Positions 1 through 30,283 of a stretch of 64,000 nt of DNA are shown in pieces. Both the position numbers and the translations under genes were made by a program. The stretch comes from a virus, in the IMG/VR virus record IMGVR_UViG_3300047157_000197, positions 1-64,000 of that record, one strand, 5' to 3'. Every line of letters starts with the position of its first letter. The stretch's first letter is position 1. The notes under the pieces are model-generated. The model made no database searches, was not told where the DNA came from, and worked only from the letters and a program-made list of their open reading frames with translations.

Positions 1-114
1 GAATACAAGTATTTAATCCTTCAAGGTGGACGATATTATATTTGTGGTAAATGTAATGATGTAACTTATCCTACCGAAGATATAGATAAGGTAGTAGAAA
101 GAGGAAGAGATTAA
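1..114 (+). CDS. 3' end of an unknown gene (partial)
   Basis: The reading frame is open from the first base to a TAA at 112-114, giving the last 37 residues of a protein that begins outside the window. A CGKC pair (residues about 15-18 of the fragment) looks like half of a zinc knuckle, and the tail is charged. No family can be named from so little sequence. Confidence 0.55.
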   Translation, partial: EYKYLILQGGRYYICGKCNDVTYPTEDIDKVVERGRD

Positions 115-543
115 CTAACCCTATATACATAATACCCCTATATACAGGTATACCGAATCCCACTACCGCATACTCTATACTCCCATACTCCCATACCAAC
201 AGTACCCCCTAACTCCAGACTCAACCCCAAACCCTTTCCCCCATAATAACCAAAACGATAACACCCTCGAACTCCCGATACTCACCTAAAACTTTCCCCA
301 TAACTCTCTCTATTCCAATGTGTTAAATGGGGGTAAAAGGGTGAGGGGGCTGTGAAAGTACGAGGTTTTTAATCCTTTTTAAGAGGGTCTGAGATTGAAT
401 CCGTACCAAGATATTACACCCTACCCTAATTAACCACTATACCCTCTTATATGGAGTGTACAAGGGAGTTGGGGAGTGGTGCACATACTCACTATGGGGT
501 AAGCGTATGTGTTGTTGGAGGTTATTTTTTTCCGGAGTAACTA

Positions 544-556
544 TGACACATTGTCA
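544..556. promoter_or_regulatory. Palindromic operator candidate TGACA-N3-TGTCA, copy 1
   Basis: Perfect 13-bp inverted repeat TGACACATTGTCA, followed by two more copies spaced 59 and 87 bases apart. The same half-sites recur at 1878 and at 30161-30205, which suggests a shared DNA-binding protein. No regulator is assigned. Confidence 0.5.
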
Positions 557-602
557 CACCCCCTACTTGGGACTCAATTGCATTATTCGTAATTCTACAC
601 TA

Positions 603-615
603 TGACACCTTGTCA
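603..615. promoter_or_regulatory. Palindromic operator candidate TGACA-N3-TGTCA, copy 2
   Basis: Perfect half-sites with a different spacer (TGACACCTTGTCA). The changed spacer with kept arms argues for selection on the arms rather than simple duplication. Confidence 0.5.
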
Positions 616-689
616 CCCGATTATGGATTATTTAAAATATTGGAATAAACCGCCCATTTCATTGTCATATTCGTAAATCCACCATACTA

Positions 690-702
690 TGACACATTGT
701 CA
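690..702. promoter_or_regulatory. Palindromic operator candidate TGACA-N3-TGTCA, copy 3
   Basis: Same 13 bases as copy 1 (TGACACATTGTCA), about 165 bases upstream of the promoter at 842-874. Confidence 0.5.
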
Positions 703-841
703 TGAGATTTATTTGTTTATTTAAAAAAATTGTCGTATCTTTAGGGTGGTTGTGGGTGGGAGTGTACACATCAGTATAAAGGGGTCACCAGCGGCACTGG
801 AGTACTGGAGTGGAAAATAAATTAAAAATAAGTCCTAAATT

Positions 842-874
842 GTTTGGTAGTCTCAGTTATTTTTCGTATATTAG
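842..874 (+). promoter_or_regulatory. Bacteroidetes-type promoter
   Basis: TTTGG at 842-846 and TCGTATATTAG ending at 874 form a -33/-7 pair of the kind used by Bacteroidetes sigma factors. It lies 9 bases before the start of the 72-aa membrane-protein gene. It belongs to the window-wide TT(A/T)GG-N19-20-TATATT family. Confidence 0.65.
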
Positions 875-883
875 TCATGTAAT

Positions 884-1102
884 ATGAGAGATATGAGAGA
901 TATAAAGAAATTAGTTCCCTATATAGGGTTAGGTGTAGTGATTGCCATTATACTGTTGTTGGTACCGATGATTATTCGAGGTTTTTTCGCGATATTGTTA
1001 CTTTTGATGAAAAATCCACTTGAATTCCTTATTGGAACCACGATTTTGCTCCTGTGTATGTATATAGGGGAGAAGATAATAAATAAACCATTAAATAAAT
1101 AA
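884..1102 (+). CDS. Small two-helix membrane protein
   Basis: 72 residues of unknown function. Two hydrophobic stretches (about residues 10-32 and 36-60) with a short basic linker predict a two-pass inner-membrane protein with both ends on the same side. It follows a promoter almost without a leader, so it is probably made early. A second in-frame ATG nine bases downstream is an alternative start. It is not recognised as a known holin, although the size and topology would allow that. Confidence 0.7.
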   Translation: MRDMRDIKKLVPYIGLGVVIAIILLLVPMIIRGFFAILLLLMKNPLEFLIGTTILLLCMYIGEKIINKPLNK

Positions 1103-1105
1103 AAC

Positions 1106-1438
1106 ATGAGAAACATTACCAAAATCCTCGACAGAAGTCAGAGGTTATTCCTAGCTGGGAATATGAAAAAGAGTTATTCTATCGCTATTGATGGGATTAC
1201 CGAACTATCCCAAGTAAACAGAAGATTAAACGAAGAAACCCAAGGTTGGGATTTAAAGAAAGCGTACGATTACAAGGGTACTTACAAGATTCAAGGTAAA
1301 ACTCTTACCAATTGGATGGAGAAATTATGGACAATAGTTGAAAATACTGGAGTTGAACCGATTGTAGAGGAGTATGAAACTGATATGATTCAGTACAGTA
1401 TAGATAATACACAGACGTTAGTAAAGAATAGAAAATAA
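1106..1438 (+). CDS. Hypothetical protein, 110 aa
   Basis: Soluble and helical in appearance, with an amphipathic N-terminus and a conserved-looking aromatic stretch around residues 48-75. It starts 3 bases after the membrane-protein stop and is likely co-transcribed with it from the promoter at 842. No family is recognised. Confidence 0.7.
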   Translation: MRNITKILDRSQRLFLAGNMKKSYSIAIDGITELSQVNRRLNEETQGWDLKKAYDYKGTYKIQGKTLTNWMEKLWTIVENTGVEPIVEEYETDMIQYSIDNTQTLVKNRK

Positions 1439-1449
1439 TTCTAATTTTA

Positions 1450-1481
1450 TTAGGATATATCAAATAAATTTTGTATATTAG
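1450..1481 (+). promoter_or_regulatory. Promoter of the candidate structured RNA
   Basis: TTAGG at 1450-1454, 19 bases of spacer, then TATATTAG at 1474-1481: an exact match to the window's early/middle promoter family. No coding sequence follows for over 500 bases; what follows is a hairpin-rich segment ending in a terminator. Confidence 0.75.
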
Positions 1482-1486
1482 CCCTG

Positions 1487-1850
1487 TAGTTGAGGTTGAT
1501 GATTGAGAATATAGGGTTTGATTCCCTCTCTAGTTAATCTCCAAAGACCTCCTCTTAATAGAATTAGAGGCCGTCAGTAGTGTTGGGAGATACACCTACT
1601 ATAAAAACTGAATCTCTTTTAAAGAAATGTGAGCTGTTGGTGGTATTTTCTCACTCTAAACAACGAACCACCACATATAACGATGATGAGTCACAGGCGA
1701 TGAAATGATACTACGCTCGGAATCGAATTTCATCCACAGATTAGGGGTTTTCTGTGGAGATTAATAGGAGCCAACTCAACTCTCTCCTATCCTAAGTGTT
1801 CAATCTGAACCACCCACTAAGTTATGGCTTCCTTCTTAGTGGGTTTTTTT
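1487..1850 (+). ncRNA. Candidate structured non-coding RNA, about 360 nt
   Basis: The stretch has its own promoter (1450-1481) and an intrinsic terminator (1813-1850), and no convincing reading frame. Stems visible by eye: AGGG/CCCT 1513-1527 with a T-arm-like loop; CCTCT/AGAGG 1551-1570; AGTAG-TGT/ACA-CTACT 1576-1600; GTGAG/CTCAC 1629-1654, whose loop TGGTGGT (1638-1644) can pair with ACCACCA (1667-1673) as a pseudoknot; GATGAAAT/ATTTCATC 1699-1734; CCACAGA/TCTGTGG 1734-1757; ATAGGAG/CTCCTAT 1764-1790. A 10-bp long-range stem (1534-1543 with 1755-1764) encloses the middle. It does not show tmRNA, RNase P or 6S landmarks that I can recognise. Function is unknown; the 5' end is inferred from the promoter. 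Confidence 0.6.
1813..1850 (+). terminator. Intrinsic terminator of the candidate RNA
   Basis: Perfect 9-bp stem CCCACTAAG (1813-1821) with CTTAGTGGG (1835-1843), followed by seven T residues. Confidence 0.85.
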
Positions 1851-1864
1851 ATTCCCTATACTCT

Positions 1865-1902
1865 GGAGCCGGGAACATGACATAATGTCAGATGCTGGCT
1901 CC
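1865..1902. promoter_or_regulatory. Operator palindrome nested in a larger hairpin
   Basis: TGACATAATGTCA at 1878-1890 has the same arms as the palindromes at 544-702. It is framed by GGAGCC (1865-1870) and GGCTCC (1897-1902), so the site can also fold as a 38-base hairpin. It lies upstream of the promoter at 1957-1988. Confidence 0.5.
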
Positions 1903-1910
1903 TGTACCTA

Positions 1911-1932
1911 TTGTTAATAACTTGTTAATAAC
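1911..1932 (+). repeat. Tandem 11-base direct repeat
   Basis: TTGTTAATAAC is present twice back to back (1911-1921 and 1922-1932), just upstream of the promoter at 1957. It could be an iteron or regulator site; with two copies only, this is weak. Confidence 0.45.
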
Positions 1933-1956
1933 TTTTTTAAAATAAACCTCTTTTTA

Positions 1957-1988
1957 TTAGGTTTTTACAAAAAATAGTCGTATATTAC
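1957..1988 (+). promoter_or_regulatory. Bacteroidetes-type promoter
   Basis: TTAGG (1957-1961), 19-base spacer, TATATTAC (1981-1988). It precedes the 86-aa gene with a leader of roughly 30 bases. Confidence 0.7.
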
Positions 1989-2024
1989 ATATGTAATAAG
2001 TAATAATCCTTAAAACTAAAAAAT

Positions 2025-17326: not shown

Positions 17327-17401
17327 GCCTTTGTAGCTCAGCTGGCTAGAGCATCTGCATTTGTAATCAGAATGTCGTGGGTTCGAGTCCCTCCAAAGGC
17401 T
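17327..17401 (+). tRNA. tRNA-Thr (UGU) with irregular anticodon stem
   Basis: Acceptor GCCTTTG/CAAAGGC pairs perfectly and the D-arm is GCTC/GAGC. The anticodon loop TTTGTAA gives UGU. The anticodon stem pairs TCTG with CAGA, but an extra C is bulged before the closing A-T pair, and the T-stem GTGGG/CCCTC has one T-T mismatch. It may be active, may need special folding, or may be decaying. Confidence 0.75.
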
Positions 17402-17424
17402 CAATAATAATTTAAACAAAGTAA

Positions 17425-30160: not shown

Positions 30161-30205
30161 TGACAAATAGTCATGTTATATGTTTACAAAACTGACAAAA
30201 TGTCA
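30161..30205. promoter_or_regulatory. Pair of TGACA/TGTCA operator candidates before hsp20
   Basis: TGACAAATAGTCA at 30161-30173 (one arm mismatch) and the perfect TGACAAAATGTCA at 30193-30205 are separated by 32 bases, with a further half-site TGACA at 30216. They share arms with sites at 544-702 and 1878. Confidence 0.5.
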
Positions 30206-30283
30206 TCTTATATGTTGACAAAAACGATTGGTATGAATTTGGTACAATAGATAGTAAATGTATAATTAAAAAAAAGGAATATT

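Follow-up and report, generated by a model that had tools for sequence, protein, structure and literature searches.

Stand-alone structured RNAs are already known from phages, and the role of structured phage RNAs such as GOLLD and ROOL is an open problem. GOLLD (RF02032) combines a conserved 3′ region with a less conserved 5′ region and forms a homo-oligomeric RNA nanocage (PMC12286853), and the leaders of rrn operons are ordered as a boxB hairpin followed by boxA (PMC10250234). We analyzed a candidate structured RNA of ∼365 nt near the start of a virus record of 275,970 bp; the window, as used here, is the initial 64 kb (64,000 nucleotides) of that record. This RNA and its relatives, which we call B RNA, form a family that is not among the stand-alone structured phage RNAs described to date, and no description of their motifs was found in the open-access literature. 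Like GOLLD, B RNA is a structured phage noncoding RNA with a conserved 3′ part and a variable linker; unlike GOLLD, it is shorter and has other conserved sequences, and because two phages (G038 and G047) carry both RNAs, the two are not mutual replacements. It resembles tmRNA (RF00023) and tRNA-like RNAs in its length and in the T-arm-like hairpins of the window and L168, and tmRNA lies near the type-A hairpins (see below) of its relatives. In contrast to tmRNA, the B RNA unit has no acceptor stem, no tag ORF, and no Rfam or ARAGORN match. The rrn and lambdoid antitermination leaders (boxB-boxA, HK022 put) are comparable to type A in that a hairpin starts an untranslated transcript, often with a boxA-like GTTCTTT next, whereas type A is present in single copy and can be internal in a terminated RNA. 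None of the Rfam leader families was matched by the type-A loop.

When the unit was compared with Rfam, no match was obtained at the gathering score, and at E ≤ 10 nothing in the unit was matched by any of 4227 Rfam 15 families, including RNase P RNA, 6S RNA, and the group I intron; a mir-144 match (E 3.1) lies outside the unit and was dismissed as chance. Neither Rfam nor ARAGORN detected a tmRNA in the region 1380-1920, and the same tools detect tmRNA at sister loci. The original prediction, made from the sequence of the window alone, had recognized no tmRNA, RNase P, 6S, or group I core here and had asked beforehand for an Rfam search, the results of which bore it out. GOLLD gave no match in the unit (E ≤ 10) or in the record (E ≤ 1), in a search that placed 18 of 26 sister records above the 150-bit gathering score.

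Proteins encoded in the window matched helicase, baseplate wedge, carbamoyltransferase, and other phage families, and Flavobacterium phages are among the closest annotated relatives of the baseplate protein. On the basis of the protein matches, the baseplate relatives, and the flavobacterial-type promoters, we infer that the source is a T4-like jumbo phage whose host belongs to the Bacteroidetes. The record ends (window 1-2024 and record 273871-275970) are redundant over ∼2 kb with 97-99% identity and indels, one copy having a 90-base insertion upstream of the RNA, and represent either a terminal repeat or an assembly join of two strains. The second, near-identical copy of the RNA unit lies in this redundant part at 275397-275798; the two copies differ by C1542T within the RNA and by one base inserted directly 3′ of the promoter. 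The greatest difference between the two record-end copies is in window 120-450, which is noncoding and strongly C-rich (GC skew approximately -0.43) against the positive skew of the genome. Elsewhere in the window, at 17327-17402, ARAGORN called a tRNA with an undetermined two-base anticodon (Rfam score, 56 bits). The unit comprises the following features.

1450-1481, plus strand: promoter of flavobacterial type (TTAGG ... TATATTAG), recognized as a repeated motif confined to the plus strand and by the published consensus.
1486-1850, plus strand: predicted composite noncoding transcript (B RNA), delimited by the promoter and the terminator, with homologues in G012, G038, G047, and G042.
1492-1541, plus strand: hairpin HP1, with stem 1492-1500/1533-1541, internal loop GATT (1501-1504)/TA (1531-1532), and inner stem GAGA (1505-1508)/TCTC (1527-1530), supported by covariation.
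1513-1527, plus strand: T-arm-like hairpin AGGGTTTGATTCCCT within HP1, read from the sequence; found in the window phage only and absent from HP1 of the four relatives.
1542-1684, plus strand: lineage-specific insert containing the pseudoknot of the original prediction, variable in length among relatives.
1674-1731, plus strand: degenerate type-A module, with AGG at 1695 and GATGAAA-T-GATACT-ACG-CTCGG at 1699-1720; the best match of model R1 in the RNA.
1734-1757, plus strand: hairpin CCACAGA/TCTGTGG with an AGGGG-containing loop, identified by alignment.
1779-1797, plus strand: conserved strand ACTCTCTCCTATCCTAAGT, nearly invariant in five phages.
1798-1810, plus strand: small 3′ hairpin GTTC-AATCT-GAAC, supported by compensatory changes.
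1812-1850, plus strand: intrinsic terminator, with stem 1812-1821/1835-1844 and T-run 1844-1850, its pairs kept across five sequences.

The promoter that had been proposed ahead of the unit held up. Its letters, TTAGGATATATCAAATAAATTTTGTATATTAG, belong to a motif family that matched the record 11 times on the plus strand and 0 times on the minus strand or with the control, and they match the Bacteroidetes -33/-7 consensus TTTG/TAnnTTTG (PMC6847099; PMC9723704). Since the -7 box of F. johnsoniae ends at -5 (PMC6847099), the start is expected at ∼1486. The terminator also stood, with compensatory changes in the four relatives keeping its pairing, but its stem is of 10 bp followed by T7 rather than the 9 bp first given; all ten pairs are retained in the five sequences, and five of them show changes on both sides. 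It was missing from the list of a generic scanner because its loop exceeds the length allowed by that program. Between promoter and terminator, the ∼360 bases said to be free of a reading frame (∼365 nt by our bounds) indeed hold none longer than 42 aa; this ORF has a GTG start and lies in a stretch missing from two relatives, and no short ORF is conserved among the homologues.

A homologue search with the RNA itself, covering 46 related viral records, returned two clear matches, both to the 3′ part: G012 (78% over 111 bases) and G038, which on reading were seen to have a common core plus a 3′ module. G047 (L177) was added by pattern scans, and G042 was found independently by model R2 (E 1.6e-4, the E-values of the models built in this work being rough) and again by pattern; the R2 score of the window is not independent because the window was among the four sequences used to build that model. 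The family so assembled consists of five B RNAs, two of them mutually close. L361, L362, and most other pattern-scan matches looked like chance matches to coding sequence. The homologues are metagenomic contigs, many of them fragmentary, and failure to find an element in a record therefore carries little weight; records very near the window genome may be missing from the scans. A similarity search of named phages with the RNA gave short chance matches only, an exact search with the 5′ region gave no matches, and no relatives were found with the upstream ORF (1106-1438) as bait.

In all five phages the B RNA is laid out as HP1, a middle module, and a 3′ module. HP1 lies directly 3′ of the promoter in four of the five; in G042 the B parts follow an ORF. 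The HP1 loop, GAUUGAG...CUCUA, is common to the window and the four contigs, the HP1 fold is reached by each of the five sequences alone, and the outer pairs have changes on both sides at 5/5 positions (covariation 0.625 vs 0.243 for shuffled sequences; 0/500 shuffles). The 3′ module consists of UCUCUCCUAUCCYAA, the small hairpin, and the terminator, and it too carries compensatory changes (covariation 0.471 vs 0.211; 0/500 shuffles); in G042 the GTTC/GAAC of the small hairpin becomes ATCC/GGAT through two of them. A loose pattern of the 1779-1797 strand retrieved the true members and two coding matches only, and a search of the window for an antisense target of the UCUCUCCUAUCC strand returned nothing except the strand itself. 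The hairpin with the AGGGG loop also follows the module in L168, L169, and L177. The window has both HP1 and the 3′ module with compensatory pairs and was assigned to the B RNA family on that basis. Homologues, covarying stems, and the lack of an Rfam match together support the proposal that the unit, with a dedicated promoter and terminator, encodes a structured RNA not described before. T-arm-like hairpins are present within two B RNAs, at L168:619-635 (GTAGGTTCGATTCCTAC) and window 1513-1527, and are possibly the remains of tRNA genes; no tRNA was detected at either place by ARAGORN or Rfam.

The original account of the fold fared less well. The total folding energy of the window sequence gave a z of -1.39, with 9/100 shuffles folding equally well. 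The 10-bp stem reported between 1534-1543 and 1755-1764 exists but is at chance level, a Watson-Crick stem of 10 bp being present in 53/500 dinucleotide shuffles, and it clashes with the covarying HP1 stem (1492-1500/1533-1541); on both grounds it was rejected as conserved architecture. At -94.8 kcal/mol, the energy optimum of the window RNA favors this long-range stem (forcing HP1 gives -87.9 kcal/mol), and folding favored HP1 for transcription endpoints between 1600 and 1750, before the 3′ partner exists. The long-range stem might be an alternative structure that forms late and only in the window phage. Several of the predicted hairpins, together with the pseudoknot (loop 1638-1644, complementary to 1667-1673), fall in the insert at ∼1542-1684, and the stretch from HP1 to the module ranges in length from ∼25 nt (G038 and G047) through ∼145 nt (the window) to ∼330 nt (G012). 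No homologue of the insert was found among the related viral records searched. The informative conserved parts are the two ends and one swappable module.

The middle module is type A in three relatives, RNA X in the fourth, and a degenerate type A in the window. Type A is a hairpin with the loop AGGNGAUGAAAGAUACUCGG. It was sampled by means of the exact 16-mer GATGAAAGATACTCGG, which matched at least 120 stretches; because the records were mostly chosen by this 16-mer, invariance inside it is by construction. Among the matches listed, AGG, which is outside the query, directly precedes the 16-mer in 61/66 distinct contexts, and the remaining five look like coding chance matches. The stem outside the 16-mer has both-side changes in 9/11 pairs across 32 distinct sequences (covariation 0.459 vs 0.220, 0/500 shuffles; slid controls, ≤0.165). 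In 44/61 contexts a -7 box is present whose TTTG ends 22-25 nt ahead of the core, so the RNA should begin at the type-A hairpin. Model R1 detected one strong copy in each of 26 type-A records, including those of 245, 294, 317, and 326 kb, and no type A in the phage records Mel-JY01, immuto 3-5A, LR756508, and LR756500; weak R1 matches in LR756500, G030, G040, and G043 look like coding sequence. An exact search for AGGYGATGAAAGATACTCGG in ∼85,000 bacterial and archaeal genomes gave no match. The idea that the type-A loop pairs with GOLLD was considered and rejected, such pairing being neither conserved nor better than in shuffles. Downstream of type A, L198, L203, L206, L210, and L240 have a tRNA-like sequence (GGTTGAGGTAGCTCAGTAACTC...), apparently a tRNA whose D-loop is enlarged, and L219 has an ordinary tRNA-Phe. 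The module of the window scored 13.4 bits with R1, which corresponds to a (likewise rough) E of 0.011 over 411 bases but 2.9 over 105 kb, and its loop contains insertions. In B RNA alignment A3 it aligns at the same place as the canonical type A, a position that supports its descent from that module.

The alternative module, RNA X (GTTGAAGCCAnCAnnTAATAAAACCGAnTGnGTGA ... AAAGCCGGAnAC), lies directly upstream of type A in many phages. It is ∼70-105 nt in length, usually has its own promoter, and is found near tmRNA or GOLLD.

G042:C1:75580-75671, minus strand: RNA X, also found in L193, L196, L197, L221, L274, and others.

In the RNA X alignment, 99.4% of cells are paired (covariation 0.603 vs 0.171; 0/500 shuffles). 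It has no Rfam match, and its core is without an exact match in the ∼85,000 bacterial and archaeal genomes. The annotated phage collection yielded no cultured Bacteroidetes jumbo phage with either type A or RNA X. The B RNAs of G038 and G047 contain type A, and the RNA X of these phages is ∼33-34 kb from it, at a site ∼1 kb upstream of GOLLD; the B RNA of G042 contains RNA X, and type A is separate. This exchange of modules between carrier and stand-alone genes indicates which parts behave as functional units. Type A and RNA X are found in many phages within ∼0.3-1.1 kb of GOLLD, on its upstream side; a model search of the record of the window found neither GOLLD nor RNA X. A possible third small RNA with its own promoter, RNA Y (GTTGTTCAGAAGTAGGAAGCATAGATGGTGTAAGTAAACATAGCCGAAAATGTTCAAC, with complementary ends), was observed on the minus strand of L258 at ∼2262-2205 and in L244.

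The results indicate that the unit is very probably a gene for a structured noncoding RNA, belonging to a new family assembled from small RNA modules that many large phages of Bacteroidetes-type hosts have in common. The more specific reading, that 1486-1850 is a stand-alone gene for a trans-acting RNA of the composite B RNA family in T4-like jumbo phages of Bacteroidetes-type hosts, we regard as an even call. From the sequence features we infer transcription, action in trans, and a binding partner, as follows. Transcription of B RNA would start at a host-type promoter and stop at the terminator of the unit, and HP1 and the 3′ module would frame a swappable module (type A or RNA X) and a dispensable insert, the frame yielding a discrete stable transcript. 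The conserved loop of the module would then bind a host or phage component in trans; the likeliest such component, a guess from the gene neighborhood, is a protein of the machinery for translation or transcription. Other phages encode the same modules as separate small RNAs in the tRNA/tmRNA/GOLLD cluster, and in the window phage, where GOLLD and RNA X went undetected, the module has drifted. Because its module is degenerate, the window copy may have lost function.

The strongest competing explanation, which we nonetheless consider unlikely, is that type A is a cis leader, a put- or nut-like element for antitermination or RNA processing in untranslated RNA operons, and that the window RNA is a short transcript with a worn copy. 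Type A is usually at the transcription start, and its stand-alone form has the 5′-end position of a put/nut leader. A boxA-like GTTCTTTRA often lies 12-24 nt beyond it, matching the boxB-boxA order of the rrn leaders, tRNA, tmRNA, or GOLLD is often nearby or downstream, and in L168 a boxA-like GTTCTTTGAAA directly follows HP1. However, there is one strong type-A copy per record despite many RNA genes, some copies are directly followed by another promoter, and GOLLD is 55 kb from type A in G051. Three B RNAs, moreover, contain an internal canonical type A with a terminator and no gene after it. The module of the window lies ∼190-345 nt into the RNA, and a cis leader is ill-suited to this arrangement because the terminator comes ∼115 nt past the module with no gene between. 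Action in trans by a stand-alone B RNA fits better, given the single copy, the absence of a cellular-genome match, the conserved loop on a varying stem, and the use of the module both alone and in a carrier.

It is improbable that the unit makes no functional RNA and is an intergenic promoter, 3′ untranslated part, and terminator conserved for reasons of DNA (operators, genome ends, or an origin). Such a reading would accommodate the palindrome TGACA-N3-TGTCA that lies 18-41 nt beyond the unit in four of the five phages, the B parts that follow an ORF in G042, the placement of the unit within redundant record ends, and the ordinary single-sequence fold. In contrast, HP1, the small hairpin, and the stems of the modules have changed in a compensatory manner, which indicates selection on RNA pairing. 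The palindrome looks like a general operator because it is also present upstream of an hsp20 gene, and the genes on both sides of the unit have the same direction, for which reason a replication origin was rejected: the site is not divergent. The palindrome itself occurs far above chance, in the window at 543-703, 1877-1891, and 30161-30206, with three copies before the RNA and one directly after the terminator (as also in G012, G038, and G047). Near-matching pairs lie upstream of the hsp20 gene (PF00011), and the palindrome looks like a regulator's operator. Very improbable is a B RNA that is a reduced relative or analogue of GOLLD/ROOL, an RNA-only assembly with the insert as cage linker, for although the conserved 3′ part, the variable 5′/linker part, the phage origin, and the type-A/RNA X neighbors in common with GOLLD would suit it, the unit has no GOLLD or ROOL match, the record lacks GOLLD, two B RNAs are only ∼235 nt, and GOLLD and B RNA are both present in G038 and G047.

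The analysis of B RNA as a composite noncoding RNA gene yields three covariation-supported RNA elements (B RNA, type A, and RNA X), none of which matches Rfam. Many phages carry type A and RNA X in physical linkage with GOLLD, tmRNA, and tRNA genes, and the loops of the modules are short enough for direct use as baits for their partners. We tentatively suggest that large Bacteroidetes-type phages may share single-copy trans-acting modules, among them type A, RNA X, and perhaps others, which would shuttle between separate genes of the GOLLD/tRNA cluster and composite carrier RNAs and would make up a so far unrecognized toolkit against the translation or transcription machinery of the host.
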